This document shows, piece after piece, positions 27,828-61,172 of a stretch of 64,000 bases of DNA. How positions within the stretch are numbered: the stretch's first letter is position 1; each line of letters opens with the position of its first letter. The stretch spans positions 1-64,000 of the forward strand of contig PDSZ01000040.1 of NCBI GenBank assembly GCA_002748705.1. The letters run 5' to 3'. Under the pieces are notes generated by a model. The model saw nothing but the letters and a program-made list of their open reading frames with translations. It had not been told where the DNA came from and ran no database searches. The stretch comes from Candidatus Fermentibacterota bacterium. GTDB lineage: Bacteria; Fermentibacterota; Fermentibacteria; Fermentibacterales; Fermentibacteraceae. Position numbers and translations under genes: made by a program.

Positions 27828-29723
27828 TTATGTTTTATCTTTGCCTGTGAGCACCCTGCAATCATCTATCCTTTTTGTATCACCGGAACTGTCCATAAGC
27901 TCAGCCCACAGCAATGCTATTCTGCGTGATACTCCAAGGCTCTCCCTGAGTTCCCCCAATCGGAACTGGTTTGTTCCGAAACTCTCACTAACTTTTCTCA
28001 CAGCTTCTGAGTAGATACCTGGAGTGGAAACCAGACCTTCTGTGAGAAGAATAACCATACCTCTGGCAATAAGTCCATCCACATCCTCAGAAGTACAGTT
28101 GCTCAAAGGAAGCTGACACCCCTTTAATCCGGCTTTCTCTATATCGGAGACTATGTACCTTGCAGCAACTGCATGTTCACCTTCAAGGTCTGCAGGAAAA
28201 TCGGCAACAGCAAGGAACTCTCCTCTTCTTTCAATCTCTCCCTTTTCCTCAAGATCAGCCAGAGAGAACCTTATGGCCCATACAGGTGTCTCTGATGGCA
28301 GATTTCTGGCCAGAAAAGCAGAAGGAAGACCTGGACTCAGAGGCACCCTTCGGTGAAAGGTTTTCACACTTCCCAGTATTTTCTTCTGAAGATCTTCCAC
28401 TGCAGCGGTGAGCATTATTCTTGCTGATTTTCCCTCGCCCACTGTAACTGCTCTGCCCTGCTTCTCCAGAGATTCAACTGCCTCCTGAAACTCCACAGGT
28501 TCCACTCCTGTACGGTCTATCCAGCTCATGACCTGAATGAAGTGGCCTTGAGCGTCTTCCATTGCTTCATAAAGCAAATCCTCAACATCACCGTGGGAGA
28601 GGAGATCCAGGTGTTCCATTCTGGCAGCTCTGAACCTGGACCTGACTTTGCTTGTATCAGTGTCAAGTATTACCCCGCCACCGATGGTAACCACAGGGGA
28701 GTACCTTCTTATTACAAAGCGGTCTCCAGGCATTGCCACCACAGGATGTTCAAGCTGAAAATGAACATATCCTGTTTCGCCTCTGGGAAGAGGGCGGCCT
28801 TCAACAGGTACAGCCCTTGCCATAACTTCGGCGGTTCCCACATGAAACCTTACCCTTTGCCTGACAAGCAGATCAATATTCACTGAAAGCATGGTGCAAA
28901 TGGTATCCAGACTGCTGAGTATTTTAAGAAATCCCGGCTCACCTGCAACACTTCCCCTGTGAACATCTTCCTTTTTCAGTCCAGTTAGATTAAGGGCTAT
29001 TCTGTCCCCTGCTGTACCGCTCTTCACATTCCTGGTGTCGTTAACCCCAAGCTCTCTGAGCCTGTACTGTTTCCCTGCAGGCTGAAGTTCAATTGTATCT
29101 CCCTCTCTCACCGTTCCAGAAAGCCCGGTTCCGCAGATAATTGTACCGAAACCCTTAAGGGAGAATATTCTGTCCACAGGCATCTTGAAACGGCCCTCAG
29201 AGCTTTTGCCCTCTATACTCTCAGCCATATTCACTATGGCTTCACGGAGCTGCTCAATGCCCTGACCGGTAACTGATGAAACCCTCACAACAGGGGCGCC
29301 TTCAGCCGGGGTTCCCTTCAATGCTTCCATAATTTCTTCCTGAGCCAGTTCAATAAGCTCTTCATCCACAAGATCGCACTTGGAGAGCGCCACTATACCC
29401 CTGTCAACTTCCAGCAGTCTCAGTATGTCAAGATGCTCTCTTGTCTGGGGCATAACACCCTCGTCGGCGGAAACCACCAGCAGAAAACAGTCAACCGTTG
29501 AAACACCTGCCACCATTGTCTTTACAAATTTCTCGTGACCGGGAACATCTATGCAGGATATGGTCTTACCTGATGGGGTCTCCATGAAAACATAGCCCAG
29601 CTCAATGGTGATACCTCTGGCTTTCTCTTCCTTCAGTCGATCAGGATCCCTTCCGGTGAGCTTCAGCATAAGGGTACTCTTGCCGTGGTCTATGTGCCCT
29701 GCGGTTCCTATTATTACCCCCAC
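27828..29723 (-). CDS. selB: Selenocysteine-specific elongation factor SelB
   Basis: 631 residues, full length for SelB. It has the EF-Tu-like GTPase start [14 protein letters not shown], with D-x-x-G as [12 protein letters not shown] and S-K-C-D as the guanine-specificity motif. Domains 2 and 3 follow, then a C-terminal half with winged-helix repeats (about 380-631) that recognise the SECIS hairpin in selenoprotein mRNAs. It delivers Sec-tRNA to UGA codons. It overlaps selA by 10 nt. Its presence makes UGA recoding in this genome credible, including the two candidate ORFs described in this window. Confidence 0.96.
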
Positions 29724-31096
29724 AGCTCACCTGCTTTTTCTGCTACAAGCCCTGCAAGCATTTCATCCTGCTCAGGAGCTACCGCTCTCAGATCAAGCTG
29801 CAGAGCATCGTTCTCCACCCGGCACGCAACAGCAGGGCTTGAAAGCCTCAGGGCAGAGGCCAGCTTTTCAGGATCAGGACACCTTACAGAAACACCTGCA
29901 GAGGGAATGGCAAAGTCAGGCAGACTTCCGCTGCCTACAAAACTGTCCATGCTGCCCACTGAAACAACAAGATTCTCTGACTGTTCAAGAATCCCTGTAA
30001 TTACCTGAGCCCTCTCTCTGAGTTTTTCAACAGGAACAGAGAAAGAACGGTACACAGGATGGTTCTCTGCGATGTATTCAGGGGTTTCCAGGAAAATGCG
30101 AAGAGAAGCCTGCAGCGCTGCTATAGTTAGTTTTCCAACCCTGAGAGCCCTTGCCAGAGGATGTTTCTTTATTCTGCTCAGATACTTTTCTCTGCCAAGA
30201 ATAATACCTGCCTGTGGACCCCCGATCAGTTTGTCTCCGGAACAGGTTATTACATCAGCACCTGTTTTTACACTGTGAACTATGGTAGGCTCAGATGGAA
30301 TACCGAACTTATTCAATGGAATCAGGCTTCCTGCACCGAGATCATCTATTACAGGAATTCCCCGCTGCCGGCCCAGAGCCACCAGTTCCTCAAGTTCCAC
30401 CTCACCGGTGAAACCCTTTACCCTGTAGTTGGAGGGATGAACCCTGAGAATGGCAGCAGTGTTTTCTGTTACAGCATTCTCATAATCCCTAAGATGGGTC
30501 CTGTTGGTACACCCTACTTCAACCATTGTGCAATTGCTCTGCTTCATGACTTCAGGTATTCTGAATGAACCGCCTATCTCTACCAGCTGTCCTCTGGAAA
30601 CAATAACTTCCTTTCCTGCTGCCATAGCCGATAGAACCAGAAGAGTGGCTCCTGCATTGTTGTTAGCAACTGTTGCAGCTTCAGCGCCTGTAATGGCAGT
30701 TATCAAGTGAGCAATATGCTCATCCCTGCTGCCCCTCTTTCCTGTTTTTCTGTTCCACTGCAGAACAGAATACCCGCTTGCCACCCTGCGAACCGCCTCT
30801 ATAGCCGCAGGAGGCAGGCTGGCCCTTCCCAGTGCTGTGTGCAGAACTATACCGGTTGCGTTTATAACAGTCTCCATAGTTGGTCTGCTTCCGGCAGAGG
30901 CCAGCTCAACACATCTGCTTATTATCTGATCAATACCTGGCAGTTCGCCTCCTGACGCAACTGTCTCACGAGCCCATAGAATACCGGCTCTTGCCGCTTC
31001 CCTCAGTTCAAGAGGGGTCAGACCTGTTAATTTGTCGTTGATTACCGGTACTATCTGGTGAACTGCCGGCAGGTTCTTAAGTTGTTCCATCCCCAT
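29714..31096 (-). CDS. selA: L-seryl-tRNA(Sec) selenium transferase
   Basis: 460 residues, PLP-dependent. Visible features are the N-terminal helical region (about 1-70), [15 protein letters not shown], and the PLP-lysine segment [16 protein letters not shown]. It converts Ser-tRNA(Sec) to Sec-tRNA(Sec) using selenophosphate in the bacterial one-step pathway. It is the first gene of a two-gene operon with selB. No selC or selD is visible in the window, so they must lie elsewhere if the pathway is complete. Confidence 0.97.
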
Positions 31097-41571: not shown

Positions 41572-41829
41572 TCAGCGGGAATAGCAGCGACTTCCAGACA
41601 CAGGTCCCACTGACTCCTCAACTCTGTCAGGCTTAAGACCTTTCTTACCTAAAGCTTCCAGAAAAGCTGCACTATGTTCAGCATTCAGAATAATGCACAT
41701 TCCGCAATCTGTGGAAAGTTTTCTGGGAATGGGAACCATTCTGCACTGAACACCGGCTTCTCTGGCAGCCCTTTGAGCCATAAGCACATGTGTCATGGTC
41801 TTAAATATCATGTAAAGCCTGTCAGCCAT
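41572..41829 (-). CDS. Putative Se/S carrier-like protein (DUF3343), copy 2
   Basis: 85 residues with the DUF3343 pattern: an N-terminal strand-helix (L-Y-M-I-F-K-T-M-T-H-V-L-M-A-Q), then V-P-I-P-R-x-L-S-x-D-C-G-M-C. The C-G-M-C pair after P-I-P-R is the conserved centre of this family, which is associated with selenium and sulfur metabolism genes and is thought to carry Se or S. It overlaps the end of the desulfurase-like gene by 8 nt, so the two are co-translated. A paralogue lies at 43750-43980. Confidence 0.85.
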   Translation of the reverse strand: MADRLYMIFKTMTHVLMAQRAAREAGVQCRMVPIPRKLSTDCGMCIILNAEHSAAFLEALGKKGLKPDRVEESVGPVSGSRCYSR

Positions 41830-42961
41830 TGAATTCCTTCAAAGCCTTCAGAACTGTTTCTATTTCTTCAGCCTCTGTGAAGATGCCCGGACTGAGGCGG
41901 ACAGTTCCACCTGGAAAAGTGCCGATTGTTCTGTGGGCATACTGGGCACAATGGAAACCATGACGGCAGCAGATATCGTACTCTGAGGCAAGGTAGTGAG
42001 CTATTTCTGAAGTGGAGCAGCCTGCAAGGGTAAAGGAAACAACAGCCGTCCAGGGTTTGCCTTTCTTCGGACGATAGACCTTTGCTCCGGGAATGCCTGC
42101 TATTCCATCTGCAAGAGCGCCGGCAGTGAGCAACTTTCTTCGGTGAATCTCCTGAAGGCCAAGAGAGGAGACATACTCAACGCCAGCATGCAGACCTGCA
42201 ATGCCTGGGCCATTCATTGTTCCGGCCTCAAATCTGTCCGGCATGAAATCAGGATGTCTGTTTTCCTCTGAAAAACTGCCTGTCCCCCCTTGAGCAAGAG
42301 TTCTGATTCTTTCAGTATCAAAGCTGTCGGAAAACACCAGACCGCCGGTTCCAGGAGGCCCCAGAAGAGCCTTGTGGCCTGTAAAGGCAATGATATCTGC
42401 TCCTGAAGAAAGACTTACAGGGACTATACCGGCACTCTGAGCAGCATCAATAAGAAGAACAGTTCCGTTCTCTCTGCACATGGCGGCGATGCTCTCAACA
42501 TCCTGAACGGTTCCTGTTACATTAGAACCGTGGTTGATAACCGCAAGTATTGCTCCCTTGAGGTTTCTGCGGAAAATATCAAGATCCAGATTTCCTGTGG
42601 AGTCGCATGGAGAGTAGCAGACATCTGCACCTTTTCTTTCAAGTTCAGAGAGAGGTCTTGTTACAGCGTTATGCTCCATGGCAGTTGAAACCACCCTGTC
42701 ACCTTTACCAACCATTCCGTGAAGAACAGTGTTAATGCCCCAGGTTACATTGTGGGTAAAGACCACATTAAGTGGATTATTGGAACCAAAAAAGCCAGCT
42801 ATGCTCTCACGGCAGTCAAGAACAACTCCCATGGCTTCCACTGATGCGCTACAGTTACCCCTTGCTGGACTGGTTCCGATATTCCGCATAAAACCCGACA
42901 CAGCATCTATGACACTGTCAGGTTTAGGCCACGATGTGGATGCGTTATCAAGATAAATCAA
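41822..42961 (-). CDS. Cysteine desulfurase / selenocysteine lyase-like aminotransferase (class V)
   Basis: 379 residues, PLP fold type I. It starts MIYLDNASTSWPKPDSV, the shorter N-terminus typical of a clade distinct from IscS/SufS that often accompanies selenium genes. The PLP lysine is in TGHKALLGPPGTGG, and the substrate cysteine is in ICCRHGFHCAQYAHR. It probably mobilises S or Se from cysteine or selenocysteine and passes it to the adjacent carrier-like protein. The precise substrate is inference from context: yedF, two DUF3343 genes and a UGA-containing ORF adjoin it. Confidence 0.85.
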   Translation of the reverse strand: MIYLDNASTSWPKPDSVIDAVSGFMRNIGTSPARGNCSASVEAMGVVLDCRESIAGFFGSNNPLNVVFTHNVTWGINTVLHGMVGKGDRVVSTAMEHNAVTRPLSELERKGADVCYSPCDSTGNLDLDIFRRNLKGAILAVINHGSNVTGTVQDVESIAAMCRENGTVLLIDAAQSAGIVPVSLSSGADIIAFTGHKALLGPPGTGGLVFSDSFDTERIRTLAQGGTGSFSEENRHPDFMPDRFEAGTMNGPGIAGLHAGVEYVSSLGLQEIHRRKLLTAGALADGIAGIPGAKVYRPKKGKPWTAVVSFTLAGCSTSEIAHYLASEYDICCRHGFHCAQYAHRTIGTFPGGTVRLSPGIFTEAEEIETVLKALKEFNG

Positions 42962-42990
42962 TTCCCCATCCTTTCATCGTCGCAATATAA

Positions 42991-43025
42991 GGGAAGACAG
43001 CGATGGTGGTAACACTGTCTTCCCT
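42991..43025 (-). terminator. Terminator after the UGA-containing ORF
   Basis: A 10-bp stem GGGAAGACAG / CTGTCTTCCC with a 15-nt loop lies 8 bp past the TAG at 43033. The T-tract is weak (CCTTATATT), so some readthrough into the desulfurase gene is possible. Confidence 0.65.
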
Positions 43026-43032
43026 GTGTATG

Positions 43033-43641
43033 CTAGTTGCCCAGCGTGGCCTTTATGGCACCGAAGGTTGTGGCTGTTAAATCCAGTGCTCCGTTGAGCC
43101 TCATGTGCAGGCTCACCTTCTCCAGGTCACCTGAAGAAGCGCCATAGGATCCAAAGAGAGTCTGATTCAAGCCTGGATCCCAACCCCAGACATATATAGA
43201 GTTCGACCCTGAAGACCAGCTAAACTCCATGAGCAGGTTATCGTCTCCGTTGTACCAGAATGTACGGTCAAGGGGAACCTCAAGCCAACTACCTGGACCG
43301 GAGGAGGTTAAGGTGACAGTTGAACGGTCGTACACCTTTATCCTGGTTCCGGAAATAAAGTTGTCATCAAAGACTTCAGTCAGCTCATCATTGGCACAAG
43401 TACCCATGAATATCTGCAGTCCGTCAAGAGTAACTTCTGTTCCATATTGAACATGCCAGGACAAAGATGTGATATCCATAGCGGTTCCTATATCATCCGA
43501 ATCTACCACCAACTGGTGGCGTAAACTTTGATATCAAGAGCCGCAGAAGGGCTTTTGACTGGGCTGCTGCTGCATACCGAATTCAACATATTCACCGTAG
43601 AGAACGCCTGCAATGACGATCATAACGATTACTGCCTTCAT
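43033..43641 (-). CDS. Candidate selenoprotein with PFCGSU motif, exported (copy A)
   Basis: Read through an in-frame TGA at 43534-43536, this ORF encodes 202 residues. A signal peptide begins at the ATG at 43641 with AAGGGG upstream (about 1-16, MKAVIVMIVIAGVLYG). A short Gln-rich linker is followed by P-F-C33-G-S-U36, then a beta-sandwich-like domain to residue 202 containing F-W-Y-N-G-D-D-N-L-L-M-E-F and I-Y-V-W-G-W-D. The domain resembles modules common in secreted proteins of FCB bacteria. If TGA were a stop, only a 35-residue peptide would be made. The paralogue at 60603-61172 has the TGA in the same motif. The gene lies between the Se/S carrier gene/yedF and the desulfurase-like gene in the same direction. 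The protein reading is directly visible; Sec insertion is inference. A conventional stop with a dead downstream frame is the alternative. Confidence 0.75.
43491..43533 (-). promoter_or_regulatory. SECIS-like hairpin directly after the UGA (copy A)
   Basis: Counting from the base after TGA: TATCA (1-5) pairs with TGATA (39-43), and CCACC (15-19) pairs with GGTGG (24-28) around an AGTT loop. Bacterial SECIS elements begin immediately 3' of the UGA and are bound by SelB. Position and size fit; the loop lacks the exact E. coli form. Confidence 0.55.
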
Positions 43642-43749
43642 GCATCTCACCCCTTTCTTCAGACTAGTGTTTTTTTCTGCCGATAAGAACAGTATATCTA
43701 CCGCTCTACCAGCACTTGCTTTCGTTCATCCACCATTTCAAGGCCACAT

Positions 43750-43980
43750 TCATTCCTCAGGTTTTGTGTGAACCGCCTTTTCCCTGAGACCTGAAAGTGA
43801 CAGTATCTTCTGTACTGAATCTTCATTGCCTGACACAGTTCGGAGGCAGACTCCGCATGATGATGAGAACTCCCTGGGTATGGGAACAATCTTGCAGGCA
43901 AACCCATTCCTCTCCACAAATCTGGCAGCAGAGACAACTGCACTCACAGAGTCGAATATCCTGTATGTAAAACTGTTCAT
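43750..43980 (-). CDS. Putative Se/S carrier-like protein (DUF3343), copy 1
   Basis: 76 residues with the same design as the 41572-41829 protein: Y-R-I-F-D-S-V-S-A-V-V-S-A, then V-P-I-P-R-E-F-S-S-S-C-G-V-C. The C-G-x-C pair is retained. The ATG overlaps the yedF stop (ATGA), so it is co-translated with YedF, a frequent pairing in selenium-utilising bacteria. About 110 bp downstream starts the UGA-containing ORF. Confidence 0.85.
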   Translation of the reverse strand: MNSFTYRIFDSVSAVVSAARFVERNGFACKIVPIPREFSSSCGVCLRTVSGNEDSVQKILSLSGLREKAVHTKPEE

Positions 43981-44552
43981 ATTGAATAGTGCCGCTCTGC
44001 TCTGCCAAGCTCTGTCGCAATTTCAAACATGTTAGATATTTTGCCGGCAGACAATCTCTTCATAACATCAAAATGCTTCAGACATGTACCGCACACCAGA
44101 AGATTCACACCTCTCTCCTGAAGGGTCTTGAGGTCTTCCAGAACAGGAGAACTGTCAATAGTGAGCAATACTCCTCTGTCGTAGAAGATAATGGTGGAAG
44201 GCATCTCATCCAGTTCAGTAAGGGTGTGGAAGTAGGCTCGGCACAGGACATCCTCCAACTCTGAATCGCCGCCATGTCCGAACGAATCACCTGGAACAGA
44301 TATTGCCAGATTAACCAGCTTGCTTTTTTTCTCAGGGGAGGCCTCTTCAGAACAGCTGATTTCAACTGTATCGAATTGAGAACCCTGTGTTATCTCTGCA
44401 CTGACACCTGCCCTGAGAGCAACTCTCTTTATGTTCTCAGCCTGTCCTGAGCCGTTAACAAGAATACGAAAAGGATGTTTCTTAACTATCTCCTGCTTTG
44501 CAAGAATCACAGGTTCAGGGCAGGAAAGACCCCGTGCATCAATCTCTATCAC
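43977..44552 (-). CDS. yedF: Selenium metabolism protein YedF (SirA-like plus DsrE-like)
   Basis: About 191 residues. The N-terminal TusA/SirA-like domain has D-A-R-G-L-S-C-P-E-P-V, whose cysteine is the sulfur- or selenium-relay residue. The C-terminal DsrE-like half has I-I-F-Y-D-R-G-V-L-L and N-L-L-V-C-G-T-C-L. This two-domain form defines the YedF family, linked to selenium traits. The GTG at 44552 is preferred because AAAGGTG lies at normal distance; a GTG at 44561 also opens the frame. It is the first gene of the selenium cluster. Confidence 0.9.
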   Translation of the reverse strand: MIEIDARGLSCPEPVILAKQEIVKKHPFRILVNGSGQAENIKRVALRAGVSAEITQGSQFDTVEISCSEEASPEKKSKLVNLAISVPGDSFGHGGDSELEDVLCRAYFHTLTELDEMPSTIIFYDRGVLLTIDSSPVLEDLKTLQERGVNLLVCGTCLKHFDVMKRLSAGKISNMFEIATELGRAERHYSI

Positions 44553-44746
44553 AGCAATCACCTTTCAGTCACGCTCCGCCGGAACTCTTTCATGAAGGGT
44601 GAAGTGTCGCTTTCAGAAAGAATCAGATGGCGGAAGCTTACCGCCGGTACATACCTGTACCTGAAAAACAACAGATCAAATTAAAGGAATCTGCAGGCTT
44701 TTCATTCCGCCTCCTCTCAAAGATTTCAATAATGCTAAAAGTCTTT

Positions 44747-45958
44747 TCATGAAACAAGGGTCTTCTTCAAGGCATCTGCCAGCCATTCATACTGACTGAA
44801 GGAATTGTAAAGCTGTGCAGACAGTCTGACCAGTCTGTCAGACCCGAAGCCTGTTGAAGTAACTGGAACAACTATGCCGAACTCCTCTCTCAGTTTTCTC
44901 TGAAGTGGATCTATCCAGTTAAACTCTGAAGAAAGATCAGGAGAATAGCCGGGAAGAGGCACTGCTGCCATTGAGCCGACCATTGCGGAAGGATACGGAT
45001 GTTCCACTCCCAGGGAACTGCATATCATCTCTGAGGCTTTGATGGCAAGATTGCGGTTTCTTTCCATTACTCCAGACCAGCCATTCTCATCCATGGATGC
45101 CATCAATTTCATTGTAAAGGGAATTGTCAGCTCCGGAGTGGGATCAGGTGTTCCGTTCCATCTGAACATAATCTGATAGTCTGAAAGGTCTGAGGCTATC
45201 CGCCGGGGAAGATGGCTGATAACAAGAGGTTTGAAGTTTCTCTGAAAATCAGGCCTCACATAGAGCATTGCTGATGATCTTGGTGAGCATAGCCACTTGT
45301 GGCAGTTGCCTGCATAAGCCACACAACCCATTTCCTCAAGGGCAAGAGGAAGCTGACCAGGGCCGTGGGCTCCATCAACCATTGTTTCTATTCCGTGCTG
45401 CTTAAGCAGGGTTATGATCGACTCAAGCGGCATAACCATTCCAGTGGAGCTTATCACATGATCCACAAGGGCATACCTTACAGAAGAATCAATGGCACTC
45501 TGAAACCGTTCAAGTATCTGTTTTTCGCTTTTAACAGGCCAGGGCATTTCAACCACTTTCACATTGAAGCCACGATGTTCTGCCAGTGTTTCAAGGGCAT
45601 TGGCAGAGGAGAAATACTCCTGATCGGTGACCAGTACAGTATCACTGGAATCAATGTCCATATTTTCGAGAATGGTGTTCACCGCTGTGGTTGCGTTCTC
45701 AACCATTACTACAGAACCTGACTGGGCTCCTGTAAAGGTCTCAAGCTCCATGATGGTCTTTTCAAGAAGAGGCTGATGGTGTTCCAGAAGAAATTCCATA
45801 GGGTTTTTCTCAGCAGAGCGGAGAAGTTTTTCCCTGTAGACAAGGGCTTCTGCGGGGCATGCTCCGAAGGAACCGTGATTCAGGAACACTATGTCTCTGT
45901 CAAGGCACCAGTTTTCAGAAAGAGCGCTTCCTTCAGGTAACCCTTTATGAACACTCAC
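44747..45958 (-). CDS. Class V aminotransferase, isopenicillin-N-epimerase-like
   Basis: 403 residues. F-L-N-H-G-S-F-G-A-C-P near the start is the signature of the isopenicillin-N epimerase-like subgroup. The PLP lysine is in AGNCHKWLCSPRSSAML, and VDGAHGPGQLPL holds the PLP-binding Asp. The real substrate in non-antibiotic producers is unknown; such enzymes are PLP-dependent epimerases, lyases or desulfurases. The start overlaps the PEBP-family gene upstream by 14 nt. It follows the selenium cluster but has its own upstream partner and lacks the desulfurase cysteine motif, so a selenium role is not supported. Confidence 0.85.
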   Translation of the reverse strand: MSVHKGLPEGSALSENWCLDRDIVFLNHGSFGACPAEALVYREKLLRSAEKNPMEFLLEHHQPLLEKTIMELETFTGAQSGSVVMVENATTAVNTILENMDIDSSDTVLVTDQEYFSSANALETLAEHRGFNVKVVEMPWPVKSEKQILERFQSAIDSSVRYALVDHVISSTGMVMPLESIITLLKQHGIETMVDGAHGPGQLPLALEEMGCVAYAGNCHKWLCSPRSSAMLYVRPDFQRNFKPLVISHLPRRIASDLSDYQIMFRWNGTPDPTPELTIPFTMKLMASMDENGWSGVMERNRNLAIKASEMICSSLGVEHPYPSAMVGSMAAVPLPGYSPDLSSEFNWIDPLQRKLREEFGIVVPVTSTGFGSDRLVRLSAQLYNSFSQYEWLADALKKTLVS

Positions 45959-46453: not shown

Positions 46454-48076
46454 TAGGGCTTGATGATCAACCCATCATCCCACTCAGCCCCGGCCATGCA
46501 TACCTGACCAGTCCAGTTTGACCCAAAGGACATCCAGTAACAAGCAGGCTTTCAGACTGTGATAAATCCTCATAAGGTATGAGGAAGCACCCTCCCTCAA
46601 CAGCCTCTCAAGATTCATTACCAGGTAGACCATGCTGATCACAGTCTCGCTCGTTTCCCGGAGCTTGGTCATTACCCGGTCGGTTGAATACCTCCGCTTA
46701 CCTTCTCCTATCTTACCCTCTATTGCGTTCCTGATGCGCTCATCTTCATAGCGCTGTTGACGAAGTGCCTTCATTACCGCAGGGTCTTCAAAAGGACGAC
46801 CGAGCTTGCGGCCGGAAATCCGTATCCCGCGATCCTTACAGAAACGCATGTTCTCTCGCGTCCGGTAGATCCGGTCAGCATGAACTGACTCAGGCCAGCA
46901 GCCGAACAGCCGGTGGTACTCCTTGATCTGACCGATCAGATCAAGACTCTCGTTGAAGTTGTCCCACTCTATCCGATGAATCATCGCAAGACCGGAGGAA
47001 AGCCCTATTGATACCTTTGCGCCAAACTCCCAGACTGCTCCGGCTTTGTTTCGCTTGATGGGACGTACATGCGGCTGTGATATGCTTACTATGCGGTGGG
47101 GTATCGTCCGCTTTCTCTCATCATACATCTCTTGCTGCTGACGGTATACCTCACGGATGACAAGCAGCTTTCTGTAAAGATCCAGATCCAGTACTCCAAA
47201 GCCAACTTCATCAAGCAGGGCATCCACATGACCAAGATCCCTGCGCACATAGCCAAGCTGCTTCCTCATTGCCTTTCTGAGTTTTCTGCTGCCGGGCCGT
47301 CTGGTTTTCTGCAGGCTAAGGAAAGCTTTCCGTGCTCTCTTCCGGTAGGTCCGGGGCTTTGTGCTGCCCGGCTCCCGTTCCGAATGGAGTACATCAACCA
47401 TCTTCTCAAGCAGCTCTCGCCCCTTGTTCAGCAGTTTCAGGTCTGTGGGGAATGTGATGTCAGCAGGGGTCGCTGTTGCATCAACGATCAACCGGCCTTT
47501 ATTCACAAAGCCTCCATCATCACTGGAAGACGATTCATCATCTCTGTGGCGCTTGCGGGCGGCCAGGAGGATTCTCTCGTTTATCTCAGCTATGGCCTGT
47601 GCGGGAAATCTCTTCCTGAACCTGCAAAGCTGTGACTGATCCAACGGAGGCTTGATCTGGAACTCCTGCAATCCTAAGAACCACTGGAGGTAAGGATTCT
47701 CTCTGATCGTGTCCACTGTCTCCCTGTCTGTCAGACCAAGTTTCTCCTGGATCAGTATGGAACCGAACGCGAATCTGCCGGGGAGGGCTCGCTGTCCTTC
47801 TTTCTTTCTCCCGAGACTTCGAAGATAAACTTCTTCCACGAAATCCCAGGGAACCAGCTTTGCCAGCTTGACCCATCTGTTCTCAGTATCCAGCGGTGTC
47901 CTGAATGGAGTCTTGAAGGCCTCAATTTCCAACTGACGGTTGTTATGCTGATACAATTGAATCTCCAGGTGCAAGGGTTTTGAGCAAATGTGCTCATATT
48001 GCGTGCATTTCTATGCACCTAATATACCCTCATTCCGTTGCGCTGTAAAGGTTTAAAGCTTCAGCATCAAGCCCTA
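46454..48076. mobile_element. Intact-looking IS5-family insertion sequence
   Basis: About 1.6 kb bounded by imperfect inverted repeats. The left end TAGGGCTTGATG (46454) matches the right end CATCAAGCCCTA (48065-48076), with weaker pairing further in. It contains a single transposase ORF on the minus strand. I could not identify a clear target-site duplication: the flanks are AAT on the left and TGT on the right. A decayed relative lies at 2798-3865. Confidence 0.8.
46484..47974 (-). CDS. IS5-family transposase (DDE)
   Basis: 496 residues with a TTG start giving MHLEIQLYQHNNR. The N-terminal DUF772-like domain (about 60-150) contains P-Y-L-Q-W-F-L-G-L. The first catalytic Asp is in RLIVDATATPADI, the second in ESVHADRIYRT, and the Glu in AIEGKIGEGKRRYS near the end, so the triad is complete and the frame intact. 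It is predicted to be active. Basic stretches with K-K/R-R suit DNA binding. It shares long identical blocks with the truncated copy in the accessory region. Confidence 0.9.
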   Translation of the reverse strand: MHLEIQLYQHNNRQLEIEAFKTPFRTPLDTENRWVKLAKLVPWDFVEEVYLRSLGRKKEGQRALPGRFAFGSILIQEKLGLTDRETVDTIRENPYLQWFLGLQEFQIKPPLDQSQLCRFRKRFPAQAIAEINERILLAARKRHRDDESSSSDDGGFVNKGRLIVDATATPADITFPTDLKLLNKGRELLEKMVDVLHSEREPGSTKPRTYRKRARKAFLSLQKTRRPGSRKLRKAMRKQLGYVRRDLGHVDALLDEVGFGVLDLDLYRKLLVIREVYRQQQEMYDERKRTIPHRIVSISQPHVRPIKRNKAGAVWEFGAKVSIGLSSGLAMIHRIEWDNFNESLDLIGQIKEYHRLFGCWPESVHADRIYRTRENMRFCKDRGIRISGRKLGRPFEDPAVMKALRQQRYEDERIRNAIEGKIGEGKRRYSTDRVMTKLRETSETVISMVYLVMNLERLLREGASSYLMRIYHSLKACLLLDVLWVKLDWSGMHGRG

Positions 48077-51462: not shown

Positions 51463-51864
51463 ATGCGAGTAGCACTGTCTGTATGGAATGGAAGAATAGC
51501 TCCTCTATTTGATGTTGCGTGCAACATGCAGGTATACGACTCTGAAAGTGGAGAAGTAAGGGAGCTGAGTTTTCCTGAAGGAGCCGGAGTTATGGGAAGA
51601 ATTGATATTCTTTCCGCTTCTTCAGTTGATGTTCTCATATGCGGTGCTGTTTCAAGACCTGTTTACAGGATGATGGCTTCTTCGGGACTGGACATAAGGT
51701 CCTTTGTTTCAGGAGAGACCAATGAAGTGAGAAAAGCGTTTTTTTCCGGCGAACTTGATGACATTTCCTTCACAATGCCAGGCTGCTGGGGATGCAGATG
51801 CAGAGCTGGAACAGGCCGCCGCGGAAAGGGACATGGTTCCCGCTGTGGCAGGAAAGAGGTGTAG
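51463..51864 (+). CDS. NifX/NifB-type dinitrogenase cofactor-like protein with Cys-rich tail
   Basis: 133 residues. The start MRVALSVWNGRIAPLFDVA is the common opening of the NifX/NafY-like RNase H-fold domain that binds Fe-S or metal cofactors. The C-terminal ~30 residues are unusual: C-W-G-C-R-C-R-A followed by a Gly/Arg-rich, Cys-containing end. It is the first gene after the sigma-54 promoter with a GGAGG ribosome site. No nitrogenase genes are present, so a role in Fe-S handling or redox control is more likely than nitrogen fixation. Confidence 0.8.
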   Translation: MRVALSVWNGRIAPLFDVACNMQVYDSESGEVRELSFPEGAGVMGRIDILSASSVDVLICGAVSRPVYRMMASSGLDIRSFVSGETNEVRKAFFSGELDDISFTMPGCWGCRCRAGTGRRGKGHGSRCGRKEV

Positions 51865-51865
51865 A

Positions 51866-52123
51866 ATGCCAGGTGGAGACAGAACCGGACCTTTGGGAAG
51901 AGGCCCTGGTTCAGGAAAATGTGTCGGAGCCGTAATCAGACCATGCGGCAAAATGGGCAGAGGTGCGAGAATGGGATACAGACGGGGTTTTGCCTGGTCA
52001 GGCTACTGTCTGTCTGCTGATTCTGAGGAGGGTTTTAGAGAAGCTCTTGAGAACCGTGCAGCTTTCCTTGAGCGTGAGCTGGCAGCGGTGAAAAGTAAGC
52101 TTTCAGAGAACAAGATCCGGTAA
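51866..52123 (+). CDS. DUF5320-type small protein
   Basis: 85 residues from the ATG at 51866, two bases after the previous stop. It starts MPGGDRTGPLGRGPGSGKCVG, the strongly conserved opening of DUF5320-type proteins, which are repeatedly found next to NifX-like and MinD-type Fe-S ATPase genes in anaerobes. The Gly/Arg-rich first half is followed by a coiled-coil-like helix (about 50-80, with E-N-R-A-A-F-L-E-R-E-L). Function unknown. Confidence 0.8.
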   Translation: MPGGDRTGPLGRGPGSGKCVGAVIRPCGKMGRGARMGYRRGFAWSGYCLSADSEEGFREALENRAAFLERELAAVKSKLSENKIR

Positions 52124-52181
52124 CAGATATCACCTGTGACCGGCGCTGTTTTTTCGGTGCCGGTCCTGTATAAGGAGAAAA

Positions 52182-52541
52182 ATGAAAATAGCAGTGGCAT
52201 CATCAGGCAGGGAAATGAGTGCCCCACTTGATTCGAGATTCGGCAGGGCAGAAGCATTTGTGGTTTACGACACCGATTCAGAAACCTTTGAGGCTGTGAA
52301 CAATCAGATGAACCTTAACGCAGCTCAGGGAGCAGGAATTCAGGCGGCGCAGAATGCGGCTGCCACAGGCGCAGGAGCCATTATAGCAGCAAATATTGGC
52401 CCCAAGGCTGCAAAGGTGCTGCAGACAGCAGGGGTGAAGATGTATCTCTGTCAGGCTGGAACAGTCAGGGAAGCTCTGGAACAGTACAAATCAGGCAAAC
52501 TTACAGAGGCAGACGGAGCCAATACAGAGGGCCACTGGTAA
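52182..52541 (+). CDS. NifX-family iron-molybdenum cofactor-binding-like protein
   Basis: 119 residues with the whole NifX-like fold: M-K-I-A-V-A-S-S-G, S-A-P-L-D-S-R-F-G-R-A, then A-A-T-G-A-G-A-I-I-A-A-N-I-G-P-K-A and the end A-L-E-Q-Y-K-S-G-K-L. The stop and the next start overlap as TAATG. It probably carries or scaffolds a metal cofactor together with the ATPases downstream; this is inferred from the family and operon. Confidence 0.88.
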   Translation: MKIAVASSGREMSAPLDSRFGRAEAFVVYDTDSETFEAVNNQMNLNAAQGAGIQAAQNAAATGAGAIIAANIGPKAAKVLQTAGVKMYLCQAGTVREALEQYKSGKLTEADGANTEGHW

Positions 52542-53380
52542 TGATTCTTGCTGTGGCATCCGGCAAAGGAGGAACAGGAAAGACAACTGTTGCAGCAGCG
52601 CTTGCCTCTGCAGCGGAATGTACTGTTCAGTACATTGACTGTGATGTGGAAGAACCCAACGGTTCAATCTTTCTGAAACCATCGGTATCCTCTGTGGAGC
52701 CTGTCAATATGGAGATTCCTGTTATCAATGAGAACCTGTGTTCGTCTTGCGGAAAATGTGTCCGTTTCTGCAGATTCAATGCACTGGTTTCACTGGGAAC
52801 GACTCCTCTTGTTTTTTCTGAACTCTGTCACAGTTGCGGAGGCTGTGCCATTGTCTGCCCTGAGAATGCAATTTCCTGGGAGGAACACGAAACAGGCCAT
52901 CTGAGTTTCGGTCTTACTGAAAAGGGTATCAGTGTAATTCAGGGAAAGCTGAAAGTTGGAACAGTAATGGCTCCTCCTGTAATTCGCGCTGCTCGAAATG
53001 CCGGAGGTGAGTGCGCTCTTACCGTTGTTGACTGTCCTCCTGGAACATCCTGCCCTGTAATAGAGTCCCTGGAGGGTGTTGACTATGTCCTTCTGGTTAC
53101 TGAACCTACACCTTTCGGACTCCACGACCTTAAACTGGCTGTGGAGACAGTCCGCGAGATTGGAATTCCTTGCTCGGTGGTTATAAACAGATGTGATGAG
53201 GGGGATTCCGGTGTGGAGAATTACTGCAGCAGAGAGAACCTTCATGTGATGCTCCGTATTCCCCACAGCAGGAGAATGGCAGAAGCATACTCAAGAGGCG
53301 GCATCCTTACTGAAACCATGCCTGAGTTGCTCAATGAGTTCAGGAGTATTCCTGCAAAGGTGAAGGAAAGGCTCTCATGA
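52541..53380 (+). CDS. MinD/Mrp-type P-loop ATPase with inserted ferredoxin domain (1)
   Basis: 279 residues. The deviant Walker A is VASGKGGTGKTTVA (residues 5-18) and the switch is D-C-D-V-E-E-P-N. An inserted two-cluster ferredoxin segment (about 60-115) has CSSCGKCVRFC and CHSCGGCAIVCP. Walker B is V-V-D-C-P-P-G. These tandem ATPases occur in anaerobes beside NifX-like proteins and are believed to take part in Fe-S cluster handling. It is followed with a 4-nt overlap by its paralogue, and the two may form a heterodimer. Confidence 0.9.
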   Translation: MILAVASGKGGTGKTTVAAALASAAECTVQYIDCDVEEPNGSIFLKPSVSSVEPVNMEIPVINENLCSSCGKCVRFCRFNALVSLGTTPLVFSELCHSCGGCAIVCPENAISWEEHETGHLSFGLTEKGISVIQGKLKVGTVMAPPVIRAARNAGGECALTVVDCPPGTSCPVIESLEGVDYVLLVTEPTPFGLHDLKLAVETVREIGIPCSVVINRCDEGDSGVENYCSRENLHVMLRIPHSRRMAEAYSRGGILTETMPELLNEFRSIPAKVKERLS

Positions 53381-54249
53381 AAGAGATAACTGTTATCAGC
53401 GGAAAGGGAGGCACCGGCAAGACCAGCATAACCGGTTGTTTTGCAGCACTTGCTGAAAACGCTGTGGTTGCCGACTGCGATGTTGATGCTGCAGATCTTC
53501 ACATGCTGCTGGATCCTCAGATTCAGGAAACACATGACTTTATAAGTGGAAACATCGCTGTGATACGGGAAGAAGACTGTATCGGCTGCATGGAGTGCCT
53601 GAATAAGTGCAGGTTTAATGCTATCTCCTCTACAGACAATGCAAAATGTCGTGTAGGAGTCTGGGGCTGTGAGGGCTGCGGTGTTTGTACAGAGGTGTGT
53701 CCGGTGAATGCAATAGATTTTCCTCAGCGTCATTGCGGAGTATGGTATTTTTCCCATACCAGATTTGGCCCTATGGTTCATGCTCGTCTTGGCATTGCTC
53801 AGGAGAATTCCGGCAAGCTGGTGAGCACAGTTCGCAGACAAGCCGCCGCAAAGGCAGCTGAGCTGGAAAAAGAGCTTATATTAGTGGACGGTCCTCCAGG
53901 AATAGGATGTCCGGTTACAGCATCAATTACCGGAACATCACTTGTGGTAATTATCACAGAGCCAACCATGTCAGGGCTCCATGACATGACAAGGGTAATG
54001 GATCTGGCTGATCACTTTTCCATTCCTGCAGCGATAATAGTGAACAAGTGGGACATCAACCCTGATATGACCGTTAAAATAGAGGAACTTGCTGCAGGCC
54101 GCGGTGTTTCACCGGTGGGCAGAATTCCGTACGACAGAGCTTTTACCGAGGCTCAGATACATGGCAGGACCCTTCTCGAACACAGAAGGGGAGAGCCTGC
54201 AGAAAACATCAGAAAAATCTGGGAGAATGTATGCCGAAAAATGAGATGA
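53377..54249 (+). CDS. MinD/Mrp-type P-loop ATPase with inserted ferredoxin domain (2)
   Basis: 290 residues, paralogous to the preceding protein. Walker A is VISGKGGTGKTSIT and the switch is D-C-D-V-D-A-A-D. The ferredoxin insert has CIGCMECLNKC and CEGCGVCTEVCP. Walker B is L-V-D-G-P-P-G-I-G. The pairwise arrangement (VDAAD type next to VEEPN type) is the usual one for this family. The end overlaps the Mrp gene by 19 nt. Confidence 0.9.
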   Translation: MKEITVISGKGGTGKTSITGCFAALAENAVVADCDVDAADLHMLLDPQIQETHDFISGNIAVIREEDCIGCMECLNKCRFNAISSTDNAKCRVGVWGCEGCGVCTEVCPVNAIDFPQRHCGVWYFSHTRFGPMVHARLGIAQENSGKLVSTVRRQAAAKAAELEKELILVDGPPGIGCPVTASITGTSLVVIITEPTMSGLHDMTRVMDLADHFSIPAAIIVNKWDINPDMTVKIEELAAGRGVSPVGRIPYDRAFTEAQIHGRTLLEHRRGEPAENIRKIWENVCRKMR

Positions 54250-55142
54250 AAGAAACACAGGAGTGTTCCGGAAGCTGCGATTCCTGCGGAACATCAGGCT
54301 GTGATGCCATCGAGAAGAAGCCTGGAGAGAGTGATGAGGATTATCTGAAGCGACAGAAGATGGCCATAAGAATGAACTCCATTAAGCACAAGATAGTGGT
54401 GCTTTCAGGAAAAGGCGGAGTGGGGAAGAGCACTGTTGCTGTAAACATTGCAGTGGCTCTCTCGCTTGCAGGGAAGAAGGTTGGCCTTCTGGATGTGGAT
54501 ATCCACGGCCCATCCATTCCAACAATGCTCAACATTGCTGATGCAGGAGTTACATCTGATGGAGAAAACCTCAATCCGGTGGAGATAGGCTCACTGAAGG
54601 TAATGTCTGTGGGGCTTCTTCTTGAGAACAGGGACAGTGCGGTAATCTGGCGCGGTCCCATGAAGATGAGCGTTATTGAACAACTCCTGAGAGATGTTAA
54701 CTGGGGGCAGCTGGATTACCTTATCATCGATTCTCCTCCGGGAACCGGTGATGAACCGCTCTCTGTTGTTCAGCTTACAGGAACCATGGACGGAGCTGTT
54801 ATGGTTACCACTCCCCAGAAGGTTGCAGGTGCCGATGTGAGGAAGTCGTTTAACTTCTGCGCACAACTCAATCTGCATGTACTGGGTATTGTTGAGAACA
54901 TGAGCAGCTTCATCTGCCCTGACTGTGGAAGCGAGCACAGAATTTTCGCAGGAAACAATGGACGGGAAATGGCTGAAGCTTATGGAGTTCCATTTCTGGG
55001 CAGTATACCTATTGATCCCAATGTGGGTACTGCGTGTGATGACGGTACTCCGTTTGTTTACCATTACGGCAAGACGGAAACAGGAAAGAGATTCGAGAAG
55101 CTTATCGAACCTCTGCTGACCCTCCAGAAGAAGGAGAAATAA
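54231..55142 (+). CDS. Mrp/ApbC/NBP35-type iron-sulfur cluster carrier ATPase
   Basis: 303 residues. The Cys-rich N-terminus (C-S-G-S-C-D-S-C-G-T-S-G-C) resembles the N-terminal cluster site of NBP35-like forms. The deviant Walker A is VLSGKGGVGKSTVAVNIA, with D-V-D-I-H-G-P-S-I-P and I-I-D-S-P-P-G-T-G-D. A C-terminal C-P-D-C pair (in MSSFICPDCGSEH) bridges an Fe-S cluster between subunits. It delivers Fe-S clusters to apoproteins. Its stop overlaps the next start (TAATG). Confidence 0.93.
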   Translation: MPKNEMKETQECSGSCDSCGTSGCDAIEKKPGESDEDYLKRQKMAIRMNSIKHKIVVLSGKGGVGKSTVAVNIAVALSLAGKKVGLLDVDIHGPSIPTMLNIADAGVTSDGENLNPVEIGSLKVMSVGLLLENRDSAVIWRGPMKMSVIEQLLRDVNWGQLDYLIIDSPPGTGDEPLSVVQLTGTMDGAVMVTTPQKVAGADVRKSFNFCAQLNLHVLGIVENMSSFICPDCGSEHRIFAGNNGREMAEAYGVPFLGSIPIDPNVGTACDDGTPFVYHYGKTETGKRFEKLIEPLLTLQKKEK

Positions 55143-58790: not shown

Positions 58791-60590
58791 TTGACTACGC
58801 TATTTTTTGTTTTCCTTATTGCAGGCCCTCTTGAACACTCATCTGAAGAATTGCCTGCTTATCCCTCGGTACATATGGCAGCTGTTGAATACTATGGTGA
58901 AGGAGAGAACCAGCCGGTTGAGATTACAGGATCAGATATGGGAAGGGAGCTTTACGGAACGGTATACGGCTTTCTTCCTTACTGGGTAAACCAGGCATGG
59001 CTTCAGTACGACCTCATAAGTGTGCTGGCGGTGTTCAGTGTGGATATGTCTTCATCGGGTAACATCAGCAACTACCACGGATTCCCTTCACATTTTACCT
59101 CCGCCATGGATCAGGCCCATGCTGCAGGCAGTGAAGTTGTGATTACAGTAACCAACTTTTCCGTCTCAGCAATTCATTCCATTCTTACCACTAACAGAGC
59201 CACTGCTATTGCAACCATTACTGATCTGGTGAACGGAACGGTGGTGGATGGTGTATGCATCGACTTCGAGAATGTCCAATCTGCAGATGCAGAGAGCCTT
59301 GTTACATTCATGCAGGACTTGAGAACGGCACTTCCAGATGCCCATATCTCCATATGCACACCTGTGGTGGACTGGGGAGGAGCCTTCAATTACAATGAAC
59401 TGGCAGAGAGTTGCAATGCTCTCATGATGATGTGCTATGCTTTTGCAGGCAGTTGGAGTTCTGTGGCCGGGCCTAACGCTCCACTTGTGGGCTGGGGTGC
59501 ATCTCCTGAGTCTGCCAGCAACATGGCATGGGCACTATGCGATTATGTGCGCTATGCTCCTCAGGTGCATGAGAAGCTTGTGGTCGGTCTGCCATACTAC
59601 GGGCACCAGTGGAAAACCTCTTCCCAGTCAACACATTCTCCCTGCAGCAGCTGTGCCACCCTTTTCTATACAACCCTCTCAGACAGAGCAGCTTCCTACG
59701 GCAGGCTTTGGGATGACGAGTCTCTTACTCCATGGTATGCATTCAATTCTGGAGGATGGAATCAGGGATGGTACGACGACGCAGAATCGCTTGAGTTGAA
59801 ATACAACATGGTACGAATGGCGGGAATGCAGGGTATCGGAATCTGGGCACTTGGCTATGACGGTGACAGGCCTGAACTGTGGAACCAGCTTTCAGAGAGC
59901 TTTACCGGACCTGTTTCAAATGACATGATGACAGATAACCTTGAGGACTGCTGCGTTCTCCATGGCCCGGCCAACTACTGGCATCCTTATACAGAAGGAG
60001 GTCAGTATCACACATTCTTCTTCACAGGCTCAATCTCTTCCCCTCCTGATGTGAACTGGATTGAGTGGAATTTCCATCTTCCTGACAGCTCAGGAACCTG
60101 TACACTGGAGGCATTCATACCTCCAACCGGTACTGCTGAAGTGACTTACCACATTCTTCATGAAGGCGGAGAGGACAGTGTTTCCGTTGACCAGCAGGCA
60201 TTTTCAGGCCAGTGGGTTTCCCTGGGAGGTCCTTATGCTTCCTCTTCAGGTCTTCAGGTCAGAATGGGTGACTGTACAGGTACAGAAGGCAACAGAATCG
60301 TTGCTGATGCTGTAAGATTCAGCAATGTATCCGGTACAGAAGGTTCCCGATTCTGTTTATTTGACTCAGGCTTTTCTGTTTCTGCGTCTCCTGCAGGCAG
60401 TGTAACTGTCATGGCACCGGAGGGGGGCAACCTTACTGTCTTTGATGTGAGCGGCAGGGCAGTATGTACAGAAACACTTGAATCAGGTGCAGGCTGGACA
60501 TGGAACAGTGACTGCCCCTCAGGTGTATATGTACTCAGTCTTGAATCAGAGGGAGTTCGTTATTCCTGTTCTGTTGTTATACTGAAGTAA
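58791..60590 (+). CDS. Secreted GH18-like (YaaH-type) glycosidase with golvesin-like and sorting domains
   Basis: 599 residues from a TTG start with GGAGGAAGG upstream. A signal peptide (about 1-15) is followed by the GH18 barrel (about 55-390), starting GTVYGFLPYW with the catalytic motif D153-G-V-C-I-D158-F-E160. The usual third Asp position is Cys156, but Glu160, the proton donor, is present. The stretch from about 410 to 530 resembles golvesin/xanthan-lyase-type carbohydrate-binding domains (W-V-S-L-G-G-P-Y). The last ~70 residues form a type-A-like sorting domain (L-T-V-F-D-V-S-G-R-A-V, ending G-V-Y-V-L-S-L). It probably hydrolyses peptidoglycan or chitin-like glycans outside the cell. 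It precedes the second UGA-containing ORF by 12 bp. Confidence 0.82.
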   Translation: MTTLFFVFLIAGPLEHSSEELPAYPSVHMAAVEYYGEGENQPVEITGSDMGRELYGTVYGFLPYWVNQAWLQYDLISVLAVFSVDMSSSGNISNYHGFPSHFTSAMDQAHAAGSEVVITVTNFSVSAIHSILTTNRATAIATITDLVNGTVVDGVCIDFENVQSADAESLVTFMQDLRTALPDAHISICTPVVDWGGAFNYNELAESCNALMMMCYAFAGSWSSVAGPNAPLVGWGASPESASNMAWALCDYVRYAPQVHEKLVVGLPYYGHQWKTSSQSTHSPCSSCATLFYTTLSDRAASYGRLWDDESLTPWYAFNSGGWNQGWYDDAESLELKYNMVRMAGMQGIGIWALGYDGDRPELWNQLSESFTGPVSNDMMTDNLEDCCVLHGPANYWHPYTEGGQYHTFFFTGSISSPPDVNWIEWNFHLPDSSGTCTLEAFIPPTGTAEVTYHILHEGGEDSVSVDQQAFSGQWVSLGGPYASSSGLQVRMGDCTGTEGNRIVADAVRFSNVSGTEGSRFCLFDSGFSVSASPAGSVTVMAPEGGNLTVFDVSGRAVCTETLESGAGWTWNSDCPSGVYVLSLESEGVRYSCSVVILK

Positions 60591-60602: not shown

Positions 60603-61172
60603 ATGCGAACAGCAGTTCTACTTACAATGATTGCAACTCTTTCGGCATTTGCAGCTGAAATAGTTGCAGGCGTTCAGGAGCATCCTTCAAGCGAACCGTT
60701 CTGCGGCAGTTGAGGCACATCTTCCAAACACCTCCAGGTGGTGGTGCCGGAATCATACTTTGACGGTCCGATGACAATTACCGAAGTTGGTTTTAAGAGG
60801 GCTGCTTTTGGCTCTTCATCGGTTACTCTTTACGATTTCAAACTCAGTCTGGGTTATGCAGGCGGCGTGGAGCTGGGCAGAAACTTTCATGAAAATGCGG
60901 CTTCTGAAACAGTACTTGCGCCTCTCTTCGCCGGAAGTACTGTTACAGCCGCAGATAATGGTCAGGGACAGGTGATGTTTACGCTGAATGAGCCCTTCGA
61001 ATACACTGGAGGCAATCTTCTGGTGGATCTGAGTTTTTCCGATATTTCAGGGAGCATGTATCTATGGGCATGGGATTCAGGTGAAAAAAGAGTTGTAACT
61101 GCTGACAGAATCTCCTGCGAAAACGGTAATGCCTGCAGTGTGCCTCCTGTGGTGGTTATCAAAGGGGATTAA
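60603..61172 (+). CDS. Candidate selenoprotein with PFCGSU motif, exported (copy B)
   Basis: Read through the in-frame TGA at 60711-60713, this encodes 189 residues. A signal peptide (about 1-17, MRTAVLLTMIATLSAFA) and a short linker are followed by E-P-F-C34-G-S-U37, then a beta-rich domain with the same landmarks as copy A (F-E-Y-T-G-G-N-L-L-V-D-L and M-Y-L-W-A-W-D). Overall identity to copy A is low but the architecture and TGA position are identical. An AAAGG ribosome site precedes the ATG, 12 bp after the GH18-like gene, so it is probably in that operon. The C-terminus has an extra cysteine pair (C-E-N-G-N-A-C). An ordinary stop would leave a 36-residue peptide and a well-conserved unused frame. 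Sec insertion is inferred, not proved. Confidence 0.75.
60714..60748 (+). promoter_or_regulatory. SECIS-like hairpin directly after the UGA (copy B)
   Basis: Counting from the base after TGA: GGCAC (1-5) pairs with GTGCC (31-35), and CACC (16-19) pairs with GGTG (24-27) around TCCA. The apical stem is at exactly the same distance from the UGA as in copy A, although the outer stems differ in sequence. Confidence 0.55.

Follow-up and report, generated by a model that had tools for sequence, protein, structure and literature searches.

An in-frame UGA, strongly supported as a selenocysteine codon, in a predicted exported jelly-roll protein encoded among selenium genes

The copy A gene and its in-frame UGA

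Copy A is a gene on the minus strand of a 64-kb stretch of DNA (the window, which likely comes from an uncultured Fermentibacterota bacterium). Its reading frame is interrupted by a UGA codon, and the question raised by this locus is whether that codon ends translation or is read as selenocysteine (Sec), as an earlier note on this DNA had inferred. The Sec reading is strongly supported, to the point of near certainty, by comparison of sequences: relatives carry TGA or Cys at the same column, a covarying hairpin follows the codon, and SelA and SelB are encoded in the window.

The copy A frame opens with an ATG at 43641, preceded by the ribosome-binding-site-like sequence AAAGGGGTG, and reads MKAVIVMIVIAGVLYGEYVEFGMQQQPSQKPFCGS upstream of the UGA, with the final codons CCC TTC TGC GGC TCT TGA (P-F-C-G-S-U). 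From the TGA at 43536-43534 it continues for 166 codons to a TAG (43035-43033), giving 202 residues when read through the UGA, and 3' of the TAG lies an inverted repeat, AGGGAAGACAG...CTGTCTTCCCT (43025-42990), followed by TATATT. The start codon, ribosome site, signal peptide, motif, downstream frame, and closing hairpin that the earlier note had described are all present in the sequence.

43033..43641, minus strand: copy A, candidate selenoprotein gene (sequence; all-Sec clade of 8, Shimodaira-Hasegawa-like approximate likelihood ratio test [SH-aLRT] 96)
43534..43536, minus strand: in-frame UGA of copy A, likely Sec36 (sequence; column TGA/Cys in relatives)
43594..43641, minus strand: signal-peptide-like N terminus of copy A, a hydrophobic stretch (sequence; model helix 2-13)
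43648..43656, minus strand: ribosome-binding-site-like sequence (sequence)
42990..43025, minus strand: terminator-like inverted repeat 3' of copy A (sequence)

The UGA column in copy B and in relatives

The window contains a second family member, copy B, and no third member was found in it by tblastn.

60603..61172, plus strand: copy B, candidate selenoprotein gene of 189 residues with PFCGS-UGA (sequence; all-Sec clade of 10, SH-aLRT 100)
60711..60713, plus strand: in-frame UGA of copy B, likely Sec37 (tblastn alignment, sequence)

The two copies are 32% identical over the aligned length (tblastn E=5e-17), and the TGA stands at the same column in both. The copy B codons before the UGA are CCG TTC TGC GGC AGT TGA, with Pro and Ser codons that differ from those of copy A, and the change from TCT in copy A to AGT in copy B indicates that the Ser residue is kept, not merely the bases. 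Coding conservation continues through the UGA, both between the two copies and across 71 aligned full-length genes.

Six-frame whole-genome searches detected family members in 40 of 42 genomes from one phylum (the first phylum) and in 11 of 14 from another (the second phylum), and the genes read were mainly the higher-scoring matches of the genome searches in both phyla. The first set of genes comprised 110 first-phylum loci (L011-L120), the window, and the second-phylum locus L005, amounting to 130 distinct genes, of which 128 were readable once two truncated rows lacking the site had been dropped. Identical sequences were counted once, and no two of these 128 genes, or of the 110 second-phylum genes read separately, have the same core. 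At the UGA column, the 128 readable sites hold TGA in 115 genes and Cys in 13, and none holds TAA, TAG, or another residue; seven of the genes counted as TGA are one column off in the hidden Markov model alignment, with the TGA adjacent. No further TGA occurs in the 22,484 codons of the 115 TGA genes. Among the 110 second-phylum genes, 54 carry a single TGA, located at the site, with no second TGA in 10,701 codons, and no Cys form was seen. Beyond the window, the UGA is repeated in 166 distinct genes (112 in the first phylum and 54 in the second), and in a tree of 231 genes, both window copies fall inside all-Sec clades. The non-Sec forms in this tree need three changes, and the Cys forms also need three, two of which are forced. 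As a separate observation, a T immediately precedes the UGA in 105 of 115 Sec genes, and the corresponding position is T in 7 of 13 Cys genes; such a strong NNU-UGA context may bear on read-through.

If the UGA were a real stop, copy A would be a degenerate gene, or else an exported peptide of 35 residues with an independent frame behind it. Gene finders do end the gene at this codon, an internal TTG at 43512 could open a 159-amino-acid open reading frame (ORF), and the protein database holds 34 close relatives of copies A and B and two window fragments that all begin downstream of the UGA column, with lengths of 121 to 170 amino acids, though the searched size range admitted full-length proteins. 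A stop nonetheless appears very improbable, given a column occupied by UGA in 115 of the 128 genes and by Cys in the remaining 13, with no TAA or TAG; conservation on both sides of the UGA between paralogs with 32% identity; the covarying hairpin, which accompanies the UGA forms and is disrupted in the Cys forms; and the presence of SelA and SelB in the window and of SelA and tRNA-Sec in relatives. The truncation of the close relatives at the UGA indicates instead that gene finders miss the family.

A hairpin downstream of the UGA

A candidate Sec insertion sequence (SECIS) hairpin lies downstream of the UGA in each copy, with loop distances in nucleotides (nt) as follows.

43504..43521, minus strand: candidate SECIS element of copy A, the six-pair hairpin CGCCACC-AGUU-GGUGGUA with its loop 19 nt downstream of the UGA (folding, family register)
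60729..60746, plus strand: candidate SECIS element of copy B, the hairpin CACCUCC-AGGU-GGUGGUG with a single U-U mismatch and its loop 22 nt downstream of the UGA (sequence, family register)

The copy A hairpin is more stable than shuffled sequences (z -2.74 over 45 nt), and the orthologue L004 has exactly the same 18 nt. The limits given for bacterial SECIS elements in PMC13188914 are a loop of 3 to 9 nt with a G in the first two positions, a stem of at least 4 bp, a distance of 16 to 37 nt from the UGA, and a minimum free energy of -7.5 kcal/mol or lower, and copy A lies within them, with its AGUU loop, 6 bp, 19 nt, and -13.1 kcal/mol. No Rfam SECIS family matched the whole window at gathering scores or the copy A region at a loose threshold.

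Across 108 distinct Sec sequences from the first phylum and the window, each of the six pairs is formed in 105 to 107, and pair 2 covaries (CG in 72, TA in 32). Most loops are AGGT (87) or AGTT (11), the distance from UGA to loop is 19 nt in 83 and 22 nt in 23, and the stem-loop variants in Sec genes include GCUACC-AGGU-GGUAGU, GCUAUC-AGGU-GAUAGC, and CCACC-AGGU-GGUGG. Among 104 unique sequences, 99.5% of the cells are paired versus 93.1% after shuffling (0 of 500 as high), and slid arms pair at 21 to 57%. Among the 13 Cys genes, pair 2 never forms, pair 1 forms in three, and pair 6 forms in two, and the residues after Gln, mostly VVV in Sec genes, are TLY, VLY, MLA, or VLL. Against a synonymous-recoding null, the mean z is -1.56 for first-phylum Sec genes and +0.18 for Cys genes (0 of 13 at p<=0.05); it is -2.25 for second-phylum Sec genes (36 of 54 at p<=0.05) and -0.57 for second-phylum non-Sec genes (10 of 56).

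Several observations weigh against the Sec reading or against the hairpin that accompanies it. On its own, the copy B hairpin is no better than shuffles (z 0.06), and sliding the 3' arm by -3 still leaves 91.5% pairing, because of a GTG GTN repeat. Within the set of Cys genes, pairs 3 and 5 persist in 11 of 13 and pair 4 persists in 7, and only 47 of 113 first-phylum Sec genes reach p<=0.05 under the recoding null, possibly since the encoded residues already suit the hairpin. Of the 110 second-phylum genes, 56 carry residues other than Sec or Cys at this position (motifs such as PWRGAS, PWWGSS, and PYYGGG), which indicates that the domain exists without Sec. The earlier note had looked to Cys or further UGA at this column as support for Sec, and that expectation held in the first set but not among these 56 genes, which carry other residues. 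The strict exchange of Sec and Cys is confined to the first set, and the wider domain occurs without either.

Selenocysteine machinery

The selA and selB genes that the earlier note had reported in the window were found by domain matches.

27828..29723, minus strand: SelB, Sec-specific elongation factor (GTP_EFTU, SelB beta-barrel, and SelB winged-helix domains)
29714..31096, minus strand: SelA, Sec synthase (PF03841, 446 bits)

With the window SelA as the query, just two distant loci were found. SelA occurs in 38 of 42 first-phylum and 13 of 14 second-phylum genomes, and 36 of the 42 first-phylum genomes have a tRNA-Sec match scoring 68 bits or higher; weak tRNA-Sec matches also appear in all 14 control genomes and so were not counted. 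Of the two genomes without the family, G408 has no SelA and no good tRNA-Sec and G416 has both, and three with the family, G394, G409, and G410, have no SelA match, which could be explained by incomplete genomes. The second-phylum genomes G443 and G446 contain SelA without a family gene, and G441 lacks both.

The possibility that the UGA is read as Trp or Gly, or simply read through, draws on the wider non-Sec domain, which has other residues at the site (PWWGSS, PWRGAS, YPFYTF). It is barely credible, as UGA is otherwise a normal stop that ends 20 of the 38 listed window ORFs; each UGA-containing gene has one TGA in the 22,484 and 10,701 codons read; Cys is the sole alternative residue in the first set; and the Sec machinery (SelA and SelB in the window, tRNA-Sec in relatives) and the SECIS-like hairpin speak for Sec. 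The UGA of copy A as Sec remains the reading adopted here.

Distribution of the family

The first phylum is inferred to be Fermentibacterota from the tree and from two of the 34 close database relatives, which bear the name of Candidatus Sabulitectum, a Candidatus Fermentibacterota genus. Two wider, overlapping sets of 385 and 386 genomes, including members of both phyla, added only matches in G318 and G574 (one set) and in G285, G318, G385, G574, and G624 (the other); none of the latter contains an internal TGA, and their open frames span 419 to 4155 residues. Among the first 100 relatives of a Neomarinimicrobiota genome, there was one weak match (E 0.0036), which does not belong to the type seen in copies A and B. 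A search of genome contigs with the two-copy alignment gave 130 pattern matches, none a relative, and no family member was found in viral contigs (searched twice) or plasmids.

Second-phylum genes occur in arrays. Eight genes lie within 5.8 kb of G438, seven of them with TGA, and a 2.34-Mb contig of this genome holds 13 TGA genes among 22 family matches. The arrays at L140 (G438:C1:2060500-2070000), L149, and L160 mix Sec genes with PYYGGG paralogs that have no Cys or Sec at the site. The second-phylum gene L126 carries an extra TAG and may be broken.

Cysteine partner and predicted fold

A Cys lies within three residues before the Sec in 111 of 114 genes from the first phylum and the window and in 53 of 54 from the second phylum. 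Among the 114, it is at position -3 in 96 (two of which also have one at -2), at -2 alone in 3, at -1 in 12, and only at -7 in 3, and the Cys-form genes have CxxC. The CxxU motif claimed in the earlier note is therefore the commonest form but not the only one. In the second phylum, a Cys between Pro and Arg is present in 53 of 54 Sec genes versus 6 of 55 non-Sec genes, where it stands right before the Arg; Cys and Sec there largely co-occur, as would be expected of a working pair.

The copy A protein is predicted to be exported by its N-terminal signal and to fold as an all-beta jelly roll resembling carbohydrate-binding module (CBM) and PHR domains. The predicted model consists of strands except for N- and C-terminal helices and two 4-residue turns, with a predicted local distance difference test score (pLDDT) of 93.7, in agreement with the beta-sandwich guessed in the earlier note, and does not have a thioredoxin-like alpha/beta fold. 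An earlier model, built mostly from truncated proteins, had a pLDDT below 50 at residues 34 to 38, the Sec loop; the model from full-length sequences has no stretch below 50. Thioredoxin is absent among the 50 structural matches listed, which by itself proves nothing.

None of the 71 members scanned exceeds a Pfam or NCBIfam cutoff, the best E values being 0.052 (Pfam) and 0.01 (NCBIfam), for one member each. The family also matches no selenoprotein family in the available portions of the published tables and literature searched (PMC13188914 Table 1, PMC12013277, PMC9312934). Within those sources, the statement in the earlier note that no selenoprotein family of this type had been described holds.

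Gene neighborhoods

Copy A is flanked by selenium-related genes on the same strand, and profile matches confirm the YedF, DUF3343, and desulfurase-like neighbors named in the earlier note. The last entry below is the upstream neighbor of copy B.

43750..43980, minus strand: Se_S_carrier (DUF3343) protein just upstream of copy A (PF11823, E=4.3e-14)
43977..44561, minus strand: YedF selenium-metabolism protein (TIGR03527, 151 bits; cutoff, 110)
41822..42961, minus strand: cysteine-desulfurase-family enzyme related to the Sec lyase SclA (TIGR01977, 397.5 bits; cutoff, 377)
41572..41829, minus strand: second Se_S_carrier (DUF3343) protein (PF11823, E=4.3e-17)
44747..45958, minus strand: aminotransferase class V enzyme upstream of YedF (PF00266, E=6.1e-23)
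58791..60590, plus strand: GH18/Golvesin-C protein, 12 nt upstream of copy B (profile match; same pairing in relatives)

The SclA model scores 315.5 bits against the enzyme at 41822..42961, below its cutoff of 525. An 81-amino-acid ORF at 43698-43943, upstream of copy A, was rejected as lying in the wrong frame, the true DUF3343 gene being 43750-43980. Elsewhere in the window, a DDE transposase (DUF772) at 46484-47974 lies between the selenium cluster and an NMO gene, a cluster of Nitro_FeMo-Co and ParA/NUBPL-type ATPases with ferredoxin domains occupies 51463-55474, and a tmRNA at 3961-4313 matches Rfam and is absent from the ARAGORN list.

In the clade of copy A, all six loci with readable flanks (L011-L016) adjoin YedE (four) or YedF (two); a seventh member, L017, is at a contig edge and is outside these counts. 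SelD adjoins one orthologue of copy A, and Se_S_carrier proteins are found at two of the six loci and twice in the window. Genes of the copy B clade follow a GH18/Golvesin-C protein on the same strand in 9 of 9 cases, as in the window. A membrane polyferredoxin with Fer4_5 domains is one of the two commonest neighbors among 485 neighboring ORFs: it is found at 27 loci, each in a different genome, and in all 35 pairs it lies downstream with the same orientation; this cluster, like the GH18 cluster, is named from one representative. The other commonest neighbor, represented by 27 ORFs at 26 loci, matches nothing in Pfam and has no consistent orientation. The exported repeats of the polyferredoxin read CPLGFAPDEAC...CALFTDSNGDNLCD, and the polyferredoxin at L101:3492-5342 has exported CPLG...C.LFTDSNGDNLCD repeats. 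The polyferredoxin occurs in 37 of 42 first-phylum genomes; by coordinates, it lies about 480 nt downstream of the family genes in G394 and G395, and in G411 and G415, a family fragment lies upstream of it at a contig end. Beside the Cys-form genes L044, L046, L019, and L020 is an exported protein of one kind (RVVL.EDFTN...), which in L046 has CGPC and a tail of the type IX secretion system type; of the 12 members of its cluster, spread over 12 loci, 9 lie within 100 nt of a family gene.

A proposed function and its alternatives

These neighbors suggest extracytoplasmic redox or selenium handling. The overall explanation that we consider best, with moderate confidence, is that copy A encodes a Sec-containing exported jelly-roll protein with a Cys/Sec redox switch acting outside the cytoplasm. 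SelB and tRNA-Sec would decode the UGA owing to the hairpin, whose loop is 19 nt downstream, and the N-terminal signal would export the protein, which would fold as a CBM/PHR-like jelly roll rather than as a thioredoxin. The Cys at -3 (in relatives also at -2, -1, or -7) and the Sec would then probably form a reversible selenylsulfide, alternating between thiol/selenol and Se-S states, and the paralog operons would draw electrons from the membrane polyferredoxin encoded next door. For the redox part of the explanation, namely, an exported Cys-Sec pair fed in many operons by the polyferredoxin, the balance of the evidence is modestly favorable. The copy A clade would serve selenium uptake or reduction, and the copy B clade is encoded beside a GH18 protein. 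A broader and more tentative proposal is that two phyla run an extracytoplasmic selenium electron relay, in which the polyferredoxin may feed secreted jelly-roll selenoproteins and the copy A branch may be devoted to selenium acquisition.

On the other side of the scale, redox activity is something that we infer from the motif and neighbors only, and the predicted jelly roll looks like carbohydrate-binding domains and unlike known redox folds. In three genes (IGIGU), the nearest upstream Cys is at -7, and one gene (LSGU) has none in the motif. The polyferredoxin stands alone in two genomes (G347 and G424), and its motif was not found in the 64-kb window.

In a selenoprotein without a redox couple, the Cys and Sec would bind a metal or a selenium or sulfur species, which the copy A clade would pass to the YedE transporter. 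The six of six loci beside YedE or YedF, one of them near SelD, and the Se_S_carrier proteins fit this idea, as does the shift of the Cys among -3, -2, -1, and -7, which a binding site could tolerate. We regard it as rather unlikely, since at 27 other loci the partner is instead an iron-sulfur membrane protein, the Cys forms have the classic redox spacing CxxC, and the near-invariant columns of the 71 aligned genes contain no Cys, His, or acidic residue besides the Cys-Sec pair. Finally, the protein could be a carbohydrate- or surface-binding module in which Cys and Sec form only a stable Se-S cross-link. This is quite improbable: 115 of 128 genes keep a costly Sec and its hairpin, a permanent cross-link is not known to gain from Sec over Cys, and the polyferredoxin operon would be left unexplained. 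The redox switch is preferred over both.

If correct, this would be a large new selenoprotein family, with a fold and cellular place (an exported jelly roll) uncataloged in the sources searched, and one that is present in 40 of the 42 first-phylum genomes sampled and arranged in tandem arrays in the second phylum. It also provides a natural experiment: Sec has changed to Cys at two to three places in the tree, where the hairpin broke and the mostly QVVV sequence became QTLY or similar. Such Sec-to-Cys changes in bacteria are called rare in a published review. For annotation, the 34 close database relatives of the window copies that are truncated at the UGA serve as a warning.

Comparison with known systems

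The family shares with the CxxU selenoproteins SelW-like, AhpD-like, and GrdA, as listed in PMC13188914 Table 1, the CxxU motif, a single Sec, a UGA with a downstream hairpin, and Cys forms with CxxC. It differs from them in its predicted all-beta jelly roll with a signal peptide, in a Cys that may sit at -1, -2, or -3, and in having no Pfam or NCBIfam match.

A non-Sec jelly-roll domain of other secreted proteins is also similar, with profile matches to L006-L010 at E values of 1e-10 to 1e-5 and a weak match to P0039 (E 0.014), and it shares with the copy A family a P-[FW]...R.Q-like signature. These non-Sec proteins differ in lacking an internal TGA, with open frames of 419 to 4155 residues outside the two phyla. 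The CBM-like domain of the carbohydrate esterases PbeAcXE and CspAcXE and the PHR domains share the fold only, at 5 to 8% identity, and the Cys-Sec site is not known to be part of either fold.

Copy A and its clade are linked to the YedE/YedF/DUF3343/SelD set by being encoded among these genes. The cataloged YeeE/YedE-type selenoprotein (GUxSG, PF04143) is the transporter itself, whereas copy A is predicted to be an exported jelly roll encoded in such company.
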